Shown here: positions 9,776 to 21,312 of the stretch, in pieces
Layout of the letters: the number at the start of each line of letters is the position of its first letter
Numbering within the stretch: position 1 is the first letter of the stretch
Source of the DNA: Verrucomicrobiales bacterium
GTDB taxonomy: Bacteria; Verrucomicrobiota; Verrucomicrobiia; Verrucomicrobiales; DEV007
NCBI GenBank assembly: GCA_002698785.1
Contig: PAAG01000020.1
Coordinates: 1 to 64,000 of the forward strand
DNA length: 64,000 bases
Reading direction: 5' to 3'
The notes under the pieces: model-generated
What the model was told of the DNA's origin: nothing
Database searches by the model: none
The model's input: only the letters and a program-made list of their open reading frames with translations
Made by a program: the position numbers and the translations under genes

Positions 9776-10551
9776 AGTCTATAAGATTGGTCTCCATTTG
9801 TTTGACGATTGCCACCAGCTTTGCAGCGGGCGCGCTTTTGCCCTCATGTAAAAACGGAGAGAGAAAAGAGTCTGTCCGAATCGCGCTGGCATCCAATTTC
9901 TTGCCGGTAGCTGAAGATCTTGCCGTCTTATTCGAACGCGATACCGGAGTTCACGTTGAGCTCGTTTCAGGATCCACAGGGAAATTATATGCACAGATTG
10001 TAAACGGAGCCCCTTACGATCTTTTTCTTGCCGCTGATCGAGAGCGTCCTGAGAAACTCAGAAAAGGAGGCAAAACTATTGGGAATGTCACTCCCTATGC
10101 GATTGGTTCACTTGTCGTCATTGGACCGTCGTTTCCAAATGACGCAGTTTCAGATTGGAAGAACTTGAAAATCTTGGAATTCAAACACCTTGCGATCGCG
10201 AATCCTGACATAGCGCCCTATGGGAGAGCGTCTGTGGAGGCCTTGAGATACTCAGGGCAGTTCGTCGACTTGAATGGTCGAATAGTTCAAGGCGAAAACA
10301 TTTCCCAGGCATACCACTTTGTTTCCAGTGGAAACGCCGAGATCGGAATAATCTCTCGTTCTCAATGGATGAAAGATCGCGCGAAGTGGAGTGGTTCGCT
10401 TGTTATCGCGGTGCCAACAGATGCACACGAACCTATCGAGCAGTGTGCCGTGCTGTTGACCGAGAACCAGTTCGCGTCTCAATTTCTCAAGTTTCTGGGA
10501 AGCGACAAGGCGACGGAAACCATCAGAGCAACTGGTTACAACATACCATGA
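9769..10551 (+). CDS. modA: Molybdate ABC transporter substrate-binding protein
   Basis: ModA captures molybdate or tungstate outside the cytoplasmic membrane and delivers it to ModBC. The 260-residue product has an N-terminal hydrophobic signal with a lipobox-like LPSC, suggesting a lipoprotein. It continues with the family pattern VRIALASNFLPVAEDL, GSTGKLYAQIVNGAPYDLF, an oxyanion-binding region and IANPDIAPYGRASVEAL. The GTG start at 9769 overlaps the previous gene's stop, and its own stop overlaps modB as ATGA. The order modA-modB-modC is standard. No ModE gene or molybdenum-cofactor riboswitch is evident. Confidence 0.95.
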   Translation: MLKSIRLVSICLTIATSFAAGALLPSCKNGERKESVRIALASNFLPVAEDLAVLFERDTGVHVELVSGSTGKLYAQIVNGAPYDLFLAADRERPEKLRKGGKTIGNVTPYAIGSLVVIGPSFPNDAVSDWKNLKILEFKHLAIANPDIAPYGRASVEALRYSGQFVDLNGRIVQGENISQAYHFVSSGNAEIGIISRSQWMKDRAKWSGSLVIAVPTDAHEPIEQCAVLLTENQFASQFLKFLGSDKATETIRATGYNIP

Positions 10552-11216
10552 CACTCTCACACGACGACATCAGTGCTCTCTTCGTGACAGCAAAGCTCGC
10601 GTGCATTACTACGGTCGTTCTGCTCCTGGTCGGGACTCCCTTGGCGTGGTGGGTGGCGACAACGCGCTGGCGTCTCCGTTTCCTGGTGGAAGCCGTGGTT
10701 GCCCTCCCCCTCATCCTTCCACCCACGGTGCTTGGATTCTACCTTCTCATTGCTCTCGGTCCGAAAGGCCCTGTTGGCTGGTTTGGAAACGGGACGCTCG
10801 CCTTTTCATTCACCGGTTTAGTAGTGGGCTCCGTCATCTATTCTCTGCCATTTGTCGTTCAACCACTTCAAAATGCGTTTCAGAGTATTGGTGCCGCCCC
10901 TCTTGAGAATGCTGCTATCTTGGGAGCCAGTCCTTGGGATCGATTTCGGTCTGTGGTTATGCCTCTCTCTCGTCCGGCATTTATCACCGCTTCAGTGCTC
11001 GGGTTTGCCCACACAGTTGGCGAGTTTGGTGTGGTACTCATGATAGGCGGAAATATCCCAGGAGAAACACGAGTACTGTCCATTGCTATCTACGATCATG
11101 TCGACAGCTTGGAATACGGGGCCGCCAATAGTGTTGCACTACTATTACTTATTGGCTCACTTTTACTTTTGATTCCCTTATACGCCTTTACTCGCCGCGC
11201 TCGCTTCCTGACATGA
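10548..11216 (+). CDS. modB: Molybdate ABC transporter permease
   Basis: ModB is the membrane channel of the molybdate importer. The 222-residue protein has five or six hydrophobic segments, from VTAKLACITTVVLLLVG to VALLLLIGSLLLLIPLY. It carries the permease EAA-type loop that contacts the ATPase, LENAAILGASPWDRFRSVVM followed by PLSRPAFITA. The length is normal for the family. The ATG at 10548 lies in an ATGA overlap with modA. A longer reading from 10365 would run against modA and is rejected. The 3' end overlaps the modC start by four bases. Confidence 0.96.
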   Translation: MTLSHDDISALFVTAKLACITTVVLLLVGTPLAWWVATTRWRLRFLVEAVVALPLILPPTVLGFYLLIALGPKGPVGWFGNGTLAFSFTGLVVGSVIYSLPFVVQPLQNAFQSIGAAPLENAAILGASPWDRFRSVVMPLSRPAFITASVLGFAHTVGEFGVVLMIGGNIPGETRVLSIAIYDHVDSLEYGAANSVALLLLIGSLLLLIPLYAFTRRARFLT

Positions 11217-12280
11217 GCCTGATTCTCGATATCTTGGTTAGGCGCGGAAGTTTCGATCTCTCCGTCGATACGGAATTTGCCTCGAAAGGAGTAACCGCTG
11301 TCTTTGGTCCTTCTGGATGTGGAAAGACCACCCTTTTGCGGAGCATTGCCGGCCTTGAGAATTCCATCCAGGGAAAGATTCATTTTCGGGGTCGGGCCTT
11401 CCACGAAGGTCTTGCCGGTATCCCCCCTCACACTAGGGACCTAGCATTCGTATTTCAGGAGCCCGCGTTATTTCCTCACTTATCTGTTGAGGGAAACATT
11501 ACATTTGGATTCGAGAGGGTTCGTGAGAAAACTCCACTGATTGGTGTTTCAGAGGCAGCAGAATTGACTGGAGTTACTTCCTATCTAAAGAGATCCACGA
11601 ATCAACTCTCGGGAGGTGAAAAGCAACGCGTGGCCATAGCACAGGCACTCGCTTCGAATCCAGCGCTGCTTCTGATGGATGAGCCTTTATCTGGCCTGGA
11701 TGCCTCATCCCGATCCAGCCTTCTGACGATGCTGGAATCGGTCTTTCAGAAAGTCGATATACCAGTGGTCTACGTGACCCATGATTGGAAAGAAGTTCTC
11801 CGACTGGCAGACCATGTAGTTTTCTTGCAGTCCGGCAGGATTGCTAGCCGGGGTGATATTCCAAATATTCTGCAGCAGGTCGATCTCCCAATACCAGAAG
11901 AACAATCCGGAGTCACTTTAATTGAGGCGAAAGTATCTTCAGTCGACGAGGAATTCGCGCTTTCTCAATTCTCCTTTCCTGGCGGTCAGCTGACTGTTCC
12001 TGGAGTAGATCGATCAACTGGAGATACTGCTCGAATTCTAATCGAATCTCAAGATGTGAGTATTGCGCTTACCGCTTCCGAAGACTCCAGTATTTTGAAC
12101 ATTCTTCCGGCAACAGTAAAGTCGGTCGCGATCACCGAATCCAACAAAGCAAGAGTTACGCTCGACATCGGTTCAACGATTTTGCGGGCACAGGTGACGA
12201 GAAAATCAGTCAAAAAACTCGGTTTGTCACCTGGTCTGTCCGTCTTTGCACAGATAAAGAGTGTCGCACTGTTTCCCTGA
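11213..12280 (+). CDS. modC: Molybdate ABC transporter ATP-binding protein
   Basis: ModC hydrolyses ATP to drive molybdate import through ModB. The 355-residue protein has Walker A GPSGCGKT (32-39), the Q-loop in FVFQEPALFPHL, the signature LSGGE (132-136), Walker B LLLMDEP followed by the D-loop SGLD, and the switch histidine in YVTHD. A C-terminal Mop/TOBE domain follows (about 290-355, ending VFAQIKSVALF), which is known to bind molybdate in this family. The operon ends here, 58 bp before a secreted isomerase-like gene. Confidence 0.96.
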   Translation: MSLILDILVRRGSFDLSVDTEFASKGVTAVFGPSGCGKTTLLRSIAGLENSIQGKIHFRGRAFHEGLAGIPPHTRDLAFVFQEPALFPHLSVEGNITFGFERVREKTPLIGVSEAAELTGVTSYLKRSTNQLSGGEKQRVAIAQALASNPALLLMDEPLSGLDASSRSSLLTMLESVFQKVDIPVVYVTHDWKEVLRLADHVVFLQSGRIASRGDIPNILQQVDLPIPEEQSGVTLIEAKVSSVDEEFALSQFSFPGGQLTVPGVDRSTGDTARILIESQDVSIALTASEDSSILNILPATVKSVAITESNKARVTLDIGSTILRAQVTRKSVKKLGLSPGLSVFAQIKSVALFP

Positions 12281-14618: not shown

Positions 14619-14942
14619 TCACTCTTTCGGACCGTCTTTTTCGCCGAAATTCGACAGCAAACCTTCCACCGGATCCTCTTTGCTGGCAGGGTCGAGAATC
14701 TCCTGTTCCTCAAGGCTCATATCATGCCTGAGTGACTTCAGTTCGTCCTCGGTTCGCTTTACTTCCATCTCTGCCTCGAGCATCTGCATGTGCCCTTTTC
14801 GCCACACGAAGTAGCCACAGCAGAGACCGCACAGCGTGAAGAAAAGCGCACACAGCCCGTAATAGATCCATCCTCCCGGTTCCTCGGGAAGGATAGAAAG
14901 GGCTTGAACCGGCAAGGGAAAAGTGGAGTCAGGGGCGAACAT
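14619..14942 (-). CDS. Small single-pass membrane protein of the OmpA/coiled-coil operon
   Basis: I do not recognise this 107-residue family. It has one hydrophobic segment (about residues 26-48, around YGLCALFFTLCGLCCGYFVW) followed by a charged helical region MLEAEMEVKRTEDELKSLRH and an acidic tail. Its start overlaps the stop of the long coiled-coil gene as TGATG, so the two are translationally coupled. It resembles the other small membrane protein of the operon (18378-18617) in layout, with a membrane helix then a short coil, but not clearly in sequence. A role as a membrane partner of the coiled-coil protein is inferred. Confidence 0.75.
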   Translation of the reverse strand: MFAPDSTFPLPVQALSILPEEPGGWIYYGLCALFFTLCGLCCGYFVWRKGHMQMLEAEMEVKRTEDELKSLRHDMSLEEQEILDPASKEDPVEGLLSNFGEKDGPKE

Positions 14943-17900
14943 CAGTTCACAGTCTCGGCGACAGCTTCCGGAGCGAGAATAAGCTCAACCCTTCGGGCTT
15001 TCCAGTCGGAAAAGCGCCTGTCCTGCCCAGCACTTTGAACGTTGATCGCCGACTGCGAAACCCCACGCTCAAGAAGCCTTTCACGAACCGCGTCTGCACG
15101 GCGAGCACTCAGGGATTCGGTGTAATCTGCAGTACCTTCGGAACCCGCAAAGCCTATAACCGTGATCGTCATCTTCCGTCCGGATTTCCGAAGTGCTGTG
15201 GCGCATCGGTGGATTTTTGCCACCTCTTCTCGGGACAATCCAGCGCTCGATTCCTCAAAGTAAACAACAAGGTCTTCAGCGCTGCCACCGTTCGATGCTG
15301 ATGGCGGACTGGGATCAGCGGAAGCCTCAGGTGCCTTTCCCGATTGAACTGCGTGATGACTCTCCTTCTCGGCCAATTCATCGAGTGAAGTCCCTGTGTC
15401 ATCGTCAGCCTCGCTCTCAAGCGACTGCTCCAGGACTTTCTCAAATGCCTGATCTGCTTCAGCAGAAGCCAGCTCTGCAGAATTGTTTCCAAGCCCAGTT
15501 CCCTTTCTCAGCTGTTCCTCCAAGGCGCGAAGCTTGTCTTTCAGAAGTGAAATCTCATTGTCACGAGAAGCTCGCTGCATCATGATTGTGCTGATCTGGC
15601 TTTGTAACTCACGAATCGAATCACTGCGCTTTCCAAGCTTTTGACGGAGCTGCTCGATTTCTTCGATGCTCTCTTGCCGCTGTTGAACATACTGCTGCAG
15701 TTTGGACTCCTGATCGTCAAACTCTTGCTGCAAGGCTTCCAGTTCGCTCCGGTCAACTTTCGTTCCCGAGTCTGCGAGTTGATTCACTTCTTCAGCCTTA
15801 CTGGAAAGCTCTGCCTGGAGCTCAGAAACGCGCATCGATGATTCCTCAATCGACGCATTTCTCGAATCCAACTCATTGCGAACATCAGCCAACTGTGCCT
15901 CAAGATCACCTAACTCCGACTCTCTCTGTTCGAGACGATTGGAAAGCTCCAGTGTCTTATCATCGCTTTGTTTGAGTGCCTCTTCCAGGTTTGCGATAGT
16001 AGCTTGGTAGGAGTCCCTGTGCTCGCGAGCTTCGGCGAGTTCGGACTGCAACACTTCGAGCTTGCGATCAAGTTCTTCGGTAGTGGACTCGCTCGATAGA
16101 AGCTTTGTCTCAACACCGGAAAGGTAAGCCTCGCGTTCTTTCGCCTCTTCCAATTCGGACGTAAGGTTTTCGAGGCGTCGAGTCAGTTCTTTGATAGTGG
16201 AATCACTATCGTACAACTTGTGTTCCGCCTCTCGAAGTGATTCGCCGACCTTGCTGGCTTCTTCCAGCTGCGTTCCGAGACGTTCGATTTTTCTCTCAAG
16301 ATCACCGACATTGGTCTGGCTGTGACGCAGCTCATGCTCAAGGTCCGCAATCTGGCTCTCCCGGGAGCGCGCTGCGGTTTCCAGTTCGGAAATCCTCTTG
16401 GATGCCAGGTCCAATTCATGAATTCGTTCCTCTTTCTCCTTCGAAACAACCCGGAGCTCCTCCTGTATTTCGGAGAGCGATTTGTCAGACTGCTCGACTT
16501 TCTCCGTTAGTTCGGCGATACGCTGGTTGGCTTGCTCAAGCTCTTCCTCTGCGGAAGCAACGCGACGGTCAGAAGCTTCGAACTCTGCGCCTCGACGTTC
16601 GAGCTCCGCTTCCAACTGCTCCGACTTGGAAGCATGATATTTCGCGGACTTGGCCTGCATGTCCAACTCCGCTCTCGTGGAGTTCAATTCGCGATATCTG
16701 TCCGAAAGTGCCTTTTCAAGATCGGCGATTCGGATCTGCTGTTCTTCTGAGAAAGCCACTTTGGCACTCAAAACCGCATTTAGTTGCCCGGATTCATCAG
16801 ACAGGGCCTCGAGCTCACCTTCGTGAGTTGCCATCGTATTCTTCAACTGCCTGATTGTGTCTCGTTGCTGGCGAACCTCTGCAGAAAGATCGTTCACTTC
16901 GCTGCTGCGATCTTCGATGATGGCTTCGAGCTCTTCCATTTCCGCCCTGGCAGTTTCGAATTCCTTCACCTTCTCATTGTAGGCAATACGGACATCACTC
17001 AATTCATGGCGAACGTCGTTCAATTCACCGTTCAGCGCGGTAAGATCACCAGACAATCGCTCCTTCTCTTCTTCAACCGCCTCAAGCTCTTCGATTCGGG
17101 CCTCGAGCAAATCAATCTCATCGAGACGATAATGAAGCGCAGCGCGCACGTCGTACATCTCATGGCAGGCGTCGTTCAGCTCAGTTTGTAGTGCAGCTTT
17201 CTTCCGCTCTACCTTGATCGCCTCTTCGGCACCAGCTTCGACCTTGGCCTGCATTTCGCGAAGTTCGTTCGCTTTAATTTCCAGAGCCGACTGAAGGTCT
17301 TCGATCTTCTGATGGAGAACCTGTTTTTCCTCTTCTGTTTTCAGCCTCAGTTGCTCGGCTTCTTTCTCAAACTGCGAGCGTACCACTTTCTTCTCGCTCT
17401 CCATTTCGCCAAGCAGGCGTTCTCTCTCGATCTCAGCATCCTTCGCGAATTGCTCCCTTTCCGAAAGAAGCTCTGCTTCTTTGGCGGAAAGTGCAGCTTC
17501 GCCCGCTTTCAGCTCGAAAAGACTCGCACGAAATGTAGAAATCTCACGACCGCGCTGCGAAGCAATCGCTGCTGCCTGGATGAGTCGTCGTTGATCGCTT
17601 CCCTGAGCAGTTTCTGCCTTTGCCAGCGCTGTTTCCAACTCCAGAATACGGCTTTCTGCCTCATCAAGCTTGCTCGTCGCTTCAGGGGCATCGATCAGTT
17701 TCGCTTCCAGACTTTCCACGAGTTCGACCTGCTTCAAGTACCCGCTTCTTACGTCGTGAAGTTCGTCATGGGTATCGATCAAATCCTGCTCCAGGTCTTT
17801 GATCCGCTGCTGCAAATCGTTGACTTCGTCCGCTGTGCCCTCGATCTCACTCTCTTCTTCGTCCTTGCTGGTTACAGCTGCCATAAATGGAATGGCGTCC

Positions 17901-18346
17901 ATTTTGGGTGCTTCACGAAGTTCCTCGACTTCCCGCCCCAGCAGGTCAATTTCTTCGTCGCGCGCTTTCAGAGTCTTTTCCAACTCGGCAATTTTCTTTC
18001 GGTCAGCTTCACGTTCGGCTGTATTTTCCGGAACGACTTTCCCTGAAGAAGTGAGCGTCTCATTCAATTGATCAATGCGCGCATCCTTCTCGGAAATTAC
18101 GGTCTCCCACGCATCACGGTCTTCCTGCCAACGAGAGCGTAGTTTTTTGAAAAGATCCTGCTGGGAGGCACCGAGAGCGCTCCACTGATTTGCGAGGTTC
18201 ATGTTTTCCTCAACGGCAGTGGCGAGACGCTGTGCATAGCGACCCCAGATGACTTTCGCCAGCAGCATCCCGATACCGAAAAATACGATAGCGGCCACTC
18301 CGACGGTGAGCCAGTTTTTGAGTAAGAAGAAGGAGATGTCGTGCAT
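14942..18346 (-). CDS. Long coiled-coil protein with C-terminal OmpA-like domain
   Basis: The 1134-residue product has one N-terminal membrane helix (residues about 11-35), a nearly continuous heptad-rich coiled coil (about 40-945), an acidic low-complexity linker with proline and serine (950-1020) and an OmpA-like domain (1022-1128). The coil contains internal repeats around 189-217, 390-418 and 442-470, and a tandem pair at 708-745 and 746-784. In the OmpA domain the arginine equivalent to peptidoglycan-binding R286 of E. coli OmpA is kept (R1083), but the aspartate equivalent to D271 is glycine (G1068, in IGFAGSEG). The protein probably projects from the inner membrane into the periplasm. 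It is the third gene of a four-gene operon with another OmpA protein. A structural envelope role is inferred. Confidence 0.9.
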   Translation of the reverse strand: MHDISFFLLKNWLTVGVAAIVFFGIGMLLAKVIWGRYAQRLATAVEENMNLANQWSALGASQQDLFKKLRSRWQEDRDAWETVISEKDARIDQLNETLTSSGKVVPENTAEREADRKKIAELEKTLKARDEEIDLLGREVEELREAPKMDAIPFMAAVTSKDEEESEIEGTADEVNDLQQRIKDLEQDLIDTHDELHDVRSGYLKQVELVESLEAKLIDAPEATSKLDEAESRILELETALAKAETAQGSDQRRLIQAAAIASQRGREISTFRASLFELKAGEAALSAKEAELLSEREQFAKDAEIERERLLGEMESEKKVVRSQFEKEAEQLRLKTEEEKQVLHQKIEDLQSALEIKANELREMQAKVEAGAEEAIKVERKKAALQTELNDACHEMYDVRAALHYRLDEIDLLEARIEELEAVEEEKERLSGDLTALNGELNDVRHELSDVRIAYNEKVKEFETARAEMEELEAIIEDRSSEVNDLSAEVRQQRDTIRQLKNTMATHEGELEALSDESGQLNAVLSAKVAFSEEQQIRIADLEKALSDRYRELNSTRAELDMQAKSAKYHASKSEQLEAELERRGAEFEASDRRVASAEEELEQANQRIAELTEKVEQSDKSLSEIQEELRVVSKEKEERIHELDLASKRISELETAARSRESQIADLEHELRHSQTNVGDLERKIERLGTQLEEASKVGESLREAEHKLYDSDSTIKELTRRLENLTSELEEAKEREAYLSGVETKLLSSESTTEELDRKLEVLQSELAEAREHRDSYQATIANLEEALKQSDDKTLELSNRLEQRESELGDLEAQLADVRNELDSRNASIEESSMRVSELQAELSSKAEEVNQLADSGTKVDRSELEALQQEFDDQESKLQQYVQQRQESIEEIEQLRQKLGKRSDSIRELQSQISTIMMQRASRDNEISLLKDKLRALEEQLRKGTGLGNNSAELASAEADQAFEKVLEQSLESEADDDTGTSLDELAEKESHHAVQSGKAPEASADPSPPSASNGGSAEDLVVYFEESSAGLSREEVAKIHRCATALRKSGRKMTITVIGFAGSEGTADYTESLSARRADAVRERLLERGVSQSAINVQSAGQDRRFSDWKARRVELILAPEAVAETVN

Positions 18347-18377
18347 GTGAAATGTGTTGTGCGCTCTGTTTTCGGGA

Positions 18378-18617
18378 CTATTGCTCGCCGGCGGAAAGCT
18401 CGGCTTTGATTCGGGAAATTTCTACACTCGTGCGTTCATACTCGCTCAGTGCTTCGCGGTTGTCGGTTTCTACCCTCTCGGTAAACTTACGGGTATTCCG
18501 CCAAATAATCCAGCCGATCACGAAACCTATCAGCAGACAAATGCCACCACCTATGGCCAGGGTTATGCCCCAGTCGATCAGGTAGGTTTCAAGGGATGGC
18601 GAAATATTCGGTGACAT
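18378..18617 (-). CDS. Small single-pass membrane protein
   Basis: This 79-residue protein has one membrane helix (about 16-38, ITLAIGGGICLLIGFVIGW) followed by a charged helix that looks like a short coiled coil (NREALSEYERTSVEISRIKAE). I know no named family. It sits between the two OmpA-domain genes with gaps of 12 and 31 bp, all on one strand, so it belongs to the same transcript. It may pair with the N-terminal helix and coil of the next protein. Confidence 0.75.
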   Translation of the reverse strand: MSPNISPSLETYLIDWGITLAIGGGICLLIGFVIGWIIWRNTRKFTERVETDNREALSEYERTSVEISRIKAELSAGEQ

Positions 18618-18629
18618 ATAACTCGGTTG

Positions 18630-20513
18630 TTACTCTTCTGAATCAGCGTCTTCGGATTCTGTATTCTCAAGCGGGGCAAGTGATACTTCTACCCTCCGCG
18701 ACTTCCAAAGCTGATTTTGAGAGACTCCGGAGACATCCTCTCCCTTGCTCTTGATCTCGATCTTCTCGCGATCAAGCCCAAGCGAGACCAGGGCTTCAAC
18801 AACAGAATTCGCCCGTCGCATACTCAACTGCTTGTTGTATTCAGCGTTTCCCACGTTGTCGGCAAAGCCGGTCACTACCAAATCAGTAGATGCCCCTGTC
18901 TCCTCGATCGCCTTCGCGATAGCTTCAACTTTTTTTCGGTCGTCTGAGCGAACGATTTCGCTGTTCTTGTCAAAGTAGACGGGATTCTGTTTCAGCGTCT
19001 CGGCGAGTTTTACTCTAACCTCCGGTAAAAGGGACGGCTGAGGAAACGGTTGATCGATATGAGCGAGCGTGCTTTCTACCGAATAGGTTTGTGGCACTGT
19101 GTTGATAGCGACATTTCTCAGGATCAATCCATCGGACGCGGCTACAGTTTCTCCTTCAAGTTTTAAAACGTTCTCATTCAGGGAGAACGTCCCCTTTTTC
19201 ACGCGAACGACCATTTCAGAGAAAAATTCCGGTAGCTTTGCCAACCAGTCCGCCGGAGCCACTTCTGAATTTGCCGTTAACTCATTCTTAACGCTTAGTT
19301 CCGGTCTCGCTTCGACGGATGCAGCTTCCAGCGCCTGGAAAAAACCTGTTCTTGCCACCTCCCCTGCAACAATCAGGAGATCCTCTTCAAGAGTCGCCTC
19401 GATTTTCGGGGGGGATAATGACGCGGCTCCCTCGTTCTCAATAGTGACATCCGCTATGATCTCAAGTGACGGCTGCTTCTTCTTCAGCGGAGCAAATCCC
19501 GAGAGAACCGCTTGTTCCTTCAGCTCATTCTCGACTGCCCCTGACAACCGAATTGAGTCATGAGAAAATTCAGCCGTCATTTCTCCGGCAAAGCTCTCAA
19601 GAAGCGCTGGGATAATCGTCTCGGAATGGTCCTCCCAAACTGCTGGCGATACCAGATCGCTAACCTCAATTCGATCCGTTACACGAACTGGCGGAGCCAT
19701 TTGTTTAAAAATGCCAAGGAATTTGGATTTCGATGCCTGAGAACCAAGTTTGCCCGTCGCAAGAACGCCAAAACGGTTCCTTGTGAGCTTCATTTCGGAA
19801 GGCGAGCGAAGTGAGACTGGTTCGGCCACTGTTATCTGATCATCAATAGAGGTTGGCTCCATCTGGGCAGCCAACTCAAGAAGGGATTCTTTCAGGCCAT
19901 CGTTGGAGACCTCTCCCACGAGGGTTAGCTCGCCCTTGTCATAAACGATTCGTGCTTTCTCAGAATTCGACACCAGGCTGGCAGCAAGGGAGGCAAGTTC
20001 TGCCGTTTTCGGAAGGCTGAGCCGATGTGGGTCGAGTTCGATGACATTCTCGACAGACTGAATGGAGTCTAAAGCGTGCAGCCGCGCGCCTAGAAGCATT
20101 CGGTTTGCATCCTCATCATTCGCAAGAAAGCCGTCGATCCGAACTGTGTCGGAGCCGTTCTTTCTCGTGATGACGACTTTCGGTGGGATCGTCGGACGAA
20201 CCTGTATCTGTTCCACCATGTCATCCGGCCAATATGCAGTGGGAATCTCAGATTGGAGCAAAGCGACCACTCGTTCTTTGTCTTCCCGCTTGTCGACGTA
20301 ACCGCCAACAACACCGTCCAAATGGTCGAACTCGACATTGATTCCATCAAAACCCGCCTTCGTAAGAGTCTCCTGGGACAACCTCACCAGTTCTTCCTCC
20401 ACGCTGTCTTGATGGCTATACTTCGCGAGCACAGAAAAGCCCGCTACAGCCAGAACAAAAAGTATCAAGACAGCCACAATCCTCATCGGCAAGGAAAAAT
20501 CAATGAGTGACAA
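18630..20513 (-). CDS. Periplasmic OmpA-family protein with BON-like repeats
   Basis: The 627-residue protein has an N-terminal membrane helix (about 10-30), then several alpha-beta repeats that resemble BON domains (for example ARIVYDKGELTLVGEVSND and GEMTAEFSHDSIRLSGAVEN), and a C-terminal OmpA-like domain (about 515-612). The peptidoglycan-binding pair is intact, with D552 in TGFADNVG and R567 in SMRRANS. The combination of a membrane anchor, BON-like modules and an OmpA domain recalls mycobacterial ArfA/OmpATb in layout. It is the first gene of the envelope operon, behind a 199-bp AT-rich region that may hold the promoter. It probably links the inner membrane to peptidoglycan. Confidence 0.85.
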   Translation of the reverse strand: MSLIDFSLPMRIVAVLILFVLAVAGFSVLAKYSHQDSVEEELVRLSQETLTKAGFDGINVEFDHLDGVVGGYVDKREDKERVVALLQSEIPTAYWPDDMVEQIQVRPTIPPKVVITRKNGSDTVRIDGFLANDEDANRMLLGARLHALDSIQSVENVIELDPHRLSLPKTAELASLAASLVSNSEKARIVYDKGELTLVGEVSNDGLKESLLELAAQMEPTSIDDQITVAEPVSLRSPSEMKLTRNRFGVLATGKLGSQASKSKFLGIFKQMAPPVRVTDRIEVSDLVSPAVWEDHSETIIPALLESFAGEMTAEFSHDSIRLSGAVENELKEQAVLSGFAPLKKKQPSLEIIADVTIENEGAASLSPPKIEATLEEDLLIVAGEVARTGFFQALEAASVEARPELSVKNELTANSEVAPADWLAKLPEFFSEMVVRVKKGTFSLNENVLKLEGETVAASDGLILRNVAINTVPQTYSVESTLAHIDQPFPQPSLLPEVRVKLAETLKQNPVYFDKNSEIVRSDDRKKVEAIAKAIEETGASTDLVVTGFADNVGNAEYNKQLSMRRANSVVEALVSLGLDREKIEIKSKGEDVSGVSQNQLWKSRRVEVSLAPLENTESEDADSEE

Positions 20514-20712: not shown

Positions 20713-21312
20713 TTACTCTGAAAACACGAGGGCCTCAATCTCTTCGGTGGTGCTGATAAAGGGAAGCTTTATTCCCCGAAGGAACAATCGGTTGGCAGTC
20801 TCGCTATCCTGATATGGCTGATTGTCTGCCTTTGTGACGAGGCTCTTCAAAGCCTCTGGATTCGTCGAACTGACCTCTTTCCGAAGATGGCGGATCAACT
20901 GATTGTTCGAGAAATAGAGTCGTTGCTCAATCAGGGTATCCTTCGTTTCACTTTCTCCAGTTGGGAGAGTGTTTCCCGTGAACGACCAATAGGAATCAGC
21001 GGCGTAGATGAAAAACAGTTGGCCGTTGTCATAGTAGTAGGATTCGTCTGATCCACCGTGATCCCCTGCTGTGTAGGAAAAGTCGATCTTCACAATGCTT
21101 TCGCCCGAGTAATAACGCGTCAACGTTCCGAAAAACGGCTCTCCGTCGGCTTCAAACTCAATCTTCTGCGCTCTCTTCTTCCAACCCTCAATCTGATTGT
21201 ATTTGGCGCGAATATCCTTAATTGCCTCCTCTACCCCATCAGCCTGGGTATTTAAAGGTCCTGAAAGAACAAGCGCAATGGCGGCAAGGAAAAGGAAATG
21301 TCTGCGGTTCAT
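20713..21312 (-). CDS. Hypothetical secreted protein
   Basis: The 199-residue product has a signal peptide ending near LNTQADG. The mature part holds beta-rich stretches such as GEPFFGTLTRYYSGESIVKI and DESYYYDNGQLFFIYAADSYW, followed by a helical C-terminus. The beta strands slightly recall LolA-like carriers, but I cannot support that call. It lies alone between pnp and the OmpA operon on the same strand, 199 bp from the latter, so it is probably transcribed separately. It should be periplasmic or outer-membrane associated. Confidence 0.75.
   Translation of the reverse strand: MNRRHFLFLAAIALVLSGPLNTQADGVEEAIKDIRAKYNQIEGWKKRAQKIEFEADGEPFFGTLTRYYSGESIVKIDFSYTAGDHGGSDESYYYDNGQLFFIYAADSYWSFTGNTLPTGESETKDTLIEQRLYFSNNQLIRHLRKEVSSTNPEALKSLVTKADNQPYQDSETANRLFLRGIKLPFISTTEEIEALVFSE

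Follow-up and report, generated by a model that had tools for sequence, protein, structure and literature searches.

ArfA (OmpATb, Rv0899) is encoded in a three-gene operon together with two other membrane proteins. The protein combines an N-terminal membrane anchor, a BON region and a C-terminal OmpA domain, with its central domain at residues 73-200 (PMC6151718), while the BON+BON+OmpA arrangement forms a cluster of 318 proteins in a survey of BON architectures (PMC7806268). The locus described here lies on the minus strand at positions 14619-20513 of the window, the whole stretch of 64,000 nucleotides analysed from a Verrucomicrobiales bacterium (GTDB lineage DEV007), and is a four-gene operon (A-B-C-D). 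The product of A has the arrangement seen in ArfA, B and D are small single-span membrane proteins, and C is a membrane-anchored coiled coil ending in an OmpA fold. Tol-Pal, MotB and other OmpA-ended trans-envelope proteins share the OmpA domain for wall contact, but the four genes lack a TolQ/MotA-type motor and the charge around the C helix is opposite to that of TolA, TolR and MotB. ZipA, EzrA and ZapG (YhcB) are N-out, single-span proteins with long cytoplasmic parts; ZipA and YhcB have the same charge pattern and membrane-helix position as B, C and D, and we know of none of the three that carries an OmpA-fold end or is encoded in an operon with a wall anchor. On balance, the A-D operon of these uncultivated Verrucomicrobiales appears to encode a wall-tethered inner-membrane scaffold which links peptidoglycan to a cytoplasmic coil.

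The four reading frames, their strand, order and spacing are as given in a preliminary description of this DNA, and the envelope operon is real. Gene A occupies 18630-20513 when read from a TTG codon and 18630..20486 from its probable ATG start, followed by B (79 aa; 18378..18617), C (1134 aa; 14942..18346) and D (107 aa; 14619..14942), with intergenic gaps of 12, 31 and -1, the last being an ATGA overlap of the start codon of D with the stop codon of C. All were delimited as open reading frames, with Pfam matches and AlphaFold models as further evidence for A and C, orthologs for A, hydrophobic periodicity for C and a charge test for B and D. The preliminary description proposed a search for the four-gene order elsewhere in the Verrucomicrobiota, and this order is found on one strand at 21 of the 26 loci of the genus (the window, L037-L055, L158 and L162-L166), where the relatives' proteins are 29-65% identical; a chance operon is rejected on the basis of this conservation. 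Four of the remaining loci (L044, L050, L055 and L164) run off their contigs, while L054 has A-B-C without a match to D, and the D gene of L158 is a reading frame that is still open at the contig end. Among the open-access full-text matches listed, there is no account of this gene set, in line with the earlier view that no machine of this composition has been described, nor of a wall anchor combined with a long cytoplasmic coil. None of the homologs met carries an annotation as a component of a flagellar or division complex; most of the relatives are unannotated sequences from metagenome-assembled genomes (MAGs).

The A protein comprises 627 amino acids from the TTG at 20513 or 618 from the ATG at 20486. 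The latter is probably the start, since Met-Arg or Met-Lys is found at this position in 18/18 relatives listed, forming the first residues in thirteen and lying a few residues in for the other five. An N-terminal membrane anchor, a BON region and an OmpA C-terminus are present in one protein, although BON falls below the Pfam cut-off (E-value: 8.2e-5; 23.3 bits against 27). The OmpA domain (PF00691; 18678..19025) is well above it (E-value: 1.1e-15; 58.2 bits against 27.2), and Pfam and alignment place both ligand residues, Asp 552 and Arg 567, in this domain. The AlphaFold model (mean predicted local distance difference test (pLDDT): 87; predicted template modeling score: 0.37) consists of a long N-terminal helix, a series of BON-like units and the OmpA domain. 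About seven such units were counted manually from the strands and helices of the model, compared with the single central domain range given for ArfA, and the array spans residues 58-484 counted from the TTG (19062..20342), as judged from the model and the matches to ArfA. Among 38 A proteins the ligand Asp is kept in 35, the exceptions being a Glu, a Ser and one protein (L167_A) which is counted although it seemingly has no OmpA domain in the stretch used, and the ligand Arg is kept in 37. The lengths of A orthologs are nearly constant, at 608-631 aa (coefficient of variation: 0.9%), with a mean column identity of 53% over 19 rows; L055 and L166, in which A is cut or shortened at the contig end, are left out of these counts. 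The paralogous A proteins of the sister modules described below vary from 474 to 1024 aa.

The C protein begins with a transmembrane segment (residues 11-30; 18257..18316), placed by alignment and the charge test; behind this segment lie a stretch of basic residues and a membrane-proximal region of high conservation. Its AlphaFold model is helical at residues 3-100, 113-144 and 173-949 with short breaks, and continues into a linker and the OmpA fold. A hydrophobic periodicity of 3.5 residues exceeds that of shuffled sequences (p<=0.01) in 20 of 36 windows of C, all within residues 31-954, which bears out the coil noted in the preliminary description. The helical coiled-coil region extends over approximately residues 35-949 with breaks (15500..18244), and residues 173-949 would measure 115 nm if fully extended. 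The lengths of C orthologs range from 927 to 1484 aa (coefficient of variation: 11%), and three further C proteins (L195-L197) of 497, 540 and 883 aa widen the range to 497-1484. A ruler that bridges a fixed gap would be expected to keep its length constant, which fits A but not C. The first 100 residues of C show a mean column identity of 69% over 18 rows, compared with 40% for the whole protein over 16 rows. The cut C proteins of L044, L050 and L164 are left out of the C counts, an earlier assignment in L050 having been false as the real C runs off the contig, while L055 has a cut A and no C; L053, with an N-terminal extension as part of its 1484 aa, is left out of the full alignment. Two of the short C proteins (497 and 540 aa; L195:2860-6504 and L196:3251-6899) are flanked by small membrane proteins, and in L196 the gene after these weakly matches both A and C, so that the order differs there.

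The OmpA domain of C (PF00691; residues 1027-1124; 14975..15268), identified by Pfam, AlphaFold and alignment, also exceeds the cut-off (E-value: 4.9e-15; 56.1 bits against 27.2). The ligand Asp contacts diaminopimelate in Pal and OmpA. In the window C this position (residue 1068) is occupied by Gly, while the ligand Arg is kept. Among 25 window-type C proteins only L158C retains the Asp, with Gly in 22, Glu in one and Cys in one; the column was set by Escherichia coli Pal, and L195 aligns there only with doubt. The ligand Arg is present in 25/25, as is an acidic residue two places on (Glu in 24). Where peptidoglycan-type C-termini had been proposed for both large proteins, the ligand Asp is kept in A (35/38) but lost in C (24/25). 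In a tree of few columns, from which L195-L197 are left out, 22 C-domain rows group together in one clade (support 97/91), and L158C is sister to the 21 Gly rows (support 90/95); a single early loss of Asp with strong conservation afterwards would explain this most simply. All 25 C proteins end in Asn and 23 of them in Val-Asn; in the alignment the conserved C-terminal tail of the window protein is AVAETVN (14945..14965). This near-fixed end resembles a docking peptide.

The small proteins B and D, which are related to one another, each have a single membrane span. In B the helix ends with G-W-I-I-W-(R/K)-N and is followed by a short charged helix. Sidedness was assessed by subtracting the charge on the N side of the membrane helix from that on the C side, each helix end being placed at the charged residue nearest to it, a test designed after the result of a cruder test with 15-residue flanks had been seen. 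The difference is positive in 22/22 C orthologs (+3 to +5), and likewise in the C proteins of L195-L197, but in 0/24 A orthologs, 21 of which are negative and three zero. It is also positive for B in 23/25 (two zero) and for D in 16/19 (three zero), as well as in 10 of 11 B paralogs, the other being negative. Of the E. coli controls, the N-out proteins ZipA, YhcB and LapB were positive (3/3), and seven of eight N-in proteins (TolR, TolA, FtsI, FtsQ, MotB, FtsN and DegS) were negative. The 15-residue test was noisy, as the fixed window cut off charged residues; by net charge it gave A negative in 20/24 and positive in two, B positive in 24/25 and D positive in 12/19 and negative in two. By flanking charge, therefore, the body of A is predicted to be periplasmic, while B, C and D are each predicted to be inserted N-out/C-in.

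Gene order, domains, the lost Asp, protein lengths and the charge bias come directly from computation, and taken together they suggest how a wall-tethered scaffold might be organized. The N-terminal helix of A would hold the protein in the inner membrane, and A would cross the periplasm with its fixed-length BON-like stack and grip peptidoglycan with its canonical OmpA domain. B, C and D would share one type of membrane helix, inserted N-out/C-in, and B and D, with their short cytoplasmic helices, would probably provide the coupling between A and C, within or at the membrane, completing a complex of the four proteins. The variable-length coiled coil of C would run along or into the cytoplasm, its main stretch reaching about 115 nm if extended. 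The OmpA fold of C, devoid of the Asp, probably docks to another partner, since it is still strongly conserved and its tail is fixed.

Several observations weigh against this organization. Charge tests are not proof of topology. One of the 11 controls, FtsL, came out wrong, and exceptions occur among the paralogs, where C is positive in 13/16 with two negative and one zero, and A is negative in 9/14 with three positive and two zero. In the 15-residue test C was positive in 14/22 with eight zeros, and when Lys and Arg alone were counted A was also positive in 20/24. Cysteine is present in 20/22 C and 11/24 A orthologs, which favors neither compartment. AlphaFold predicts C with low confidence (mean pLDDT: 64.5). 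L158C keeps both ligand residues, and the domain was therefore canonical when it joined C. In a single-sequence search with the whole of A, general OmpA domains rank first (1.9e-9) and ArfA is found only at 0.0079. Finally, every OmpA domain known to us works outside the cytoplasm.

The last point is shared with the alternative that best survives, and which resembles the preliminary description, namely that C is periplasmic (N-in/C-out), with a coil that folds back, follows the wall or bridges a widened periplasm, and with an OmpA end in contact with peptidoglycan or A. All OmpA domains known to us are periplasmic, the fold is conserved at the C-terminus of C with the Arg invariant, and L158C even retains the Asp. 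This topology is nevertheless rather unlikely, as the charge bias is opposite in all 22 orthologs, the ligand Asp is lost in 24/25 proteins, the length varies threefold, in contrast to that of A, and the bodies of several sister C proteins include helix-hairpin-helix (HhH) domains of a class that occurs in cytosolic proteins. Charge, variable length and the lost Asp all weaken the earlier placement of the coil in the periplasm with a peptidoglycan-binding end, which is probably wrong, and if the body of C is cytoplasmic, the puzzle of a coil exceeding the width of the periplasm disappears.

An envelope stress operon comparable to ArfABC, in which wall-bound A does the work and B, C and D are accessory proteins that regulate or localize it, would account for the closeness of A to ArfA. 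The best solved match to a profile of the A repeat part is ArfA (2KSM; 4.2e-7), as is that to the whole AlphaFold model by Foldseek (2L26; 2.8e-9), and ArfA likewise combines a membrane anchor, BON and OmpA (PMC6151718). However, A scores only 47.3 bits against the ArfA/OmpATb model NF051434, below the curated cut-off of 81, and while 57 of 72 family genomes match this model at E<=0.001, none exceeds the cut-off. The first 100 residues of C are furthermore better conserved (69%) than A (53%), which would be odd for an accessory protein, although the whole of C is not (40%). We know of no relative of the C coil or its OmpA end in the arf operon, and we regard this explanation as improbable.

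C may alternatively be a division or shape factor of the ZipA/EzrA/ZapG type, its tail or OmpA fold binding a cytoskeletal polymer and A providing the wall contact at the division site. The charge pattern of B, C and D is like that of ZipA and YhcB/ZapG in the same test, and B is weakly ZapG-like, at an E-value (0.13) under the cut-off and ranked behind a meaningless match at 0.0058. Family scans of A-D, however, gave no match above cut-off to ZipA, EzrA, ZapG or another division family, the Pfam match lists of C and D contain no ZapG/ZipA-type family, and there is no division gene among the neighbors scanned (pnp, a 199-aa protein, a MocA-type oxidoreductase and a TIM-barrel protein), all of which makes such a role doubtful. 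The predicted FtsZl1/vWA/OmpA membrane-remodeling system, described as bringing OmpA-type, vWA and lineage-specific membrane proteins together in one neighborhood (PMC2875224), is similar in its OmpA-type and lineage-specific membrane proteins, and in its vWA component to some of the sister modules, but is rejected, since FtsZl1 (PF13809) is absent from the genome of the window (a control search finds PF13809 in 3/14 known genomes) and from 19 neighbor proteins of the sister modules, which are housekeeping, metabolic or other genes with GTPases of the EngA/Der type (beside L067 and L152).

The scaffold that we favor, with A outside and the body of C inside the cell, can be compared with sister A-B-C modules found at 14 of 27 further loci of the family (L056 with two sets, L064, L066-L068, L152-L154, L156, L157, L159, L160, L168 and L171). 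These comprise an A-like gene, a B-like gene and another membrane-anchored protein in the place of C, the C of L157 being known from a profile match only and that of L160 from its start. Of the other 13 loci, three (L155, L161 and L167) combine A with a C-like gene but no B was found in them, the order being different in L167, while the remaining ten have neither a B- nor a C-like gene among the matches listed. The sister C proteins share a similar membrane helix but have different bodies, consisting of HhH repeats (L064 and L066), a coil with HhH (L056C2, L154 and L156), a coil only (L056C1 and L153), HhH with vWA (L067 and L068), vWA (L171), or HhH with an OmpA-like domain (L168). By Pfam, HhH exceeds the cut-off in L064C and L067C and falls below it in L066C, L068C and L056C2. 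The vWA assignment is weak, with L068C matching VWA_3 at 0.0017, under the cut-off; L067C at its end resembles L068C (37% over 620 columns) and L171C resembles L068C (53% over 221). The OmpA-like domain of L168C, which together with an HhH stretch (36% over 42 residues against its counterpart in L056C2) lies behind one membrane helix, has neither the Asp nor the Arg and is a separate case on a long branch. Inspection of the individual loci shows membrane-anchored proteins with many HhH-type repeats adjoining a BON/OmpA gene and a B-like gene (L064:3319-6414 and L066:3770-7825), and proteins in which a similar membrane helix and HhH repeats precede a vWA-like C-terminal domain carrying a DxSxS motif (L067:2350-7467 and L068:3633-5423). 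One genome, G150 (L152-L155), contains 18 matches to the ArfA BON model, all under the cut-off, an expansion of this type of protein.

By NCBIfam, the domains of L056C2, L154, L156 and L167 belong to the class ending the NuoE, ribosomal L21 and S2 and phasin PhaH models, with all matches under the whole-protein cut-offs, including that of L156C to the tail of the NuoE model (2.1e-50). A PDB search with the L056C2 domain finds a complex I subunit (8e-10) and, at 8.9e-9, protein-O (8YY9) from the RC-LH1 complex of Dinoroseobacter shibae; a further comparison gives 8.8e-8 for protein-O. Protein-O is also membrane-anchored with this HhH class at its C-terminus, but it has a two-helix hairpin and another partner, and its likeness to the sister C proteins is confined to the HhH part and does not extend to the window C. 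Its N-terminal helices are reported to form a hairpin with a disulfide 10-59 on the cytoplasmic side (PMC12079452); with the hairpin ends in the cytoplasm, its C-terminal HhH-class domain would therefore be cytoplasmic as well.

The sister modules raise the more tentative possibility of a new class of wall-to-cytoplasm tethers, with a constant outside (BON array and OmpA), one kind of membrane helix and exchangeable cytoplasmic loads, such as a coil with a reworked OmpA fold, a coil with HhH, HhH arrays, or HhH with vWA, the load in this genus being a cytoplasmic OmpA fold devoid of its ligand site. We know of no OmpA fold so far that works inside the cytoplasm. If this is true, a wall-binding domain would have been relocated to the cell interior and adapted to a different function, and peptidoglycan would have a built-in link to a cytoplasmic scaffold, in a phylum in which envelope and cytoskeleton have received little attention. 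The membrane side of C is a claim that is easily tested, and the natural variants keep the outside part and swap the inside part.

In a sample of 141 genomes of the order, A is found at E<=1e-90 in 20 of 22 genus genomes and in 0/119 others. In a search of the family, a profile of A finds 27/33 genus genomes at E<=1e-100, rows used in building the profile included; this profile leaves out L044, L045, L052 and L067 and takes in five sister A proteins, so that G023, G071, G101 and G130 match by construction. Among the 20 matches listed for A, the named relatives are MAGs whose titles give Verrucomicrobiales, Akkermansiaceae, Verrucomicrobiaceae, Verrucomicrobiia or Verrucomicrobia/Verrucomicrobiota, and one Gemmatimonadetes contig matches the OmpA end only. 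The membrane-proximal region of C is present in 29 of 31 genus genomes, 0/41 other family genomes and 0/386 other genomes of a phylum sample, a total of 427, some of which possibly occur in both samples. It is lacking from G075 and G135, and in G135 the contig ends inside A. A profile of the A repeats has partial matches in 10/287 other phylum genomes, and the eight of these ten that were inspected showed no B- or C-like match. Searched against 72,556 plasmid records, A matches 86, with its OmpA end only in the 20 listed ones, and the A protein of L068 matches none.

The pnp gene lies beside the operon or nearby in 14 of the 19 loci L037-L055. Between pnp and A, the window has a minus-strand gene (20713-21312) for a 199-aa protein that looks exported and matches no Pfam family above cut-off. 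As its homologs (39-52% identity) are found near A in nine of these 19 loci, it may be part of the A-D unit. Promoter-like sites in the locus scan are at chance level (5 against 3.9 expected; standard deviation: 2.3), and none of the terminator-like sites, 15 in number against 8.6 expected (standard deviation: 3.4), lies on the minus strand directly after D. Judged from their translations, two genes on the plus strand at 10365-12280 resemble those for a molybdate-type ABC transporter, one for its permease and one for its ATPase.

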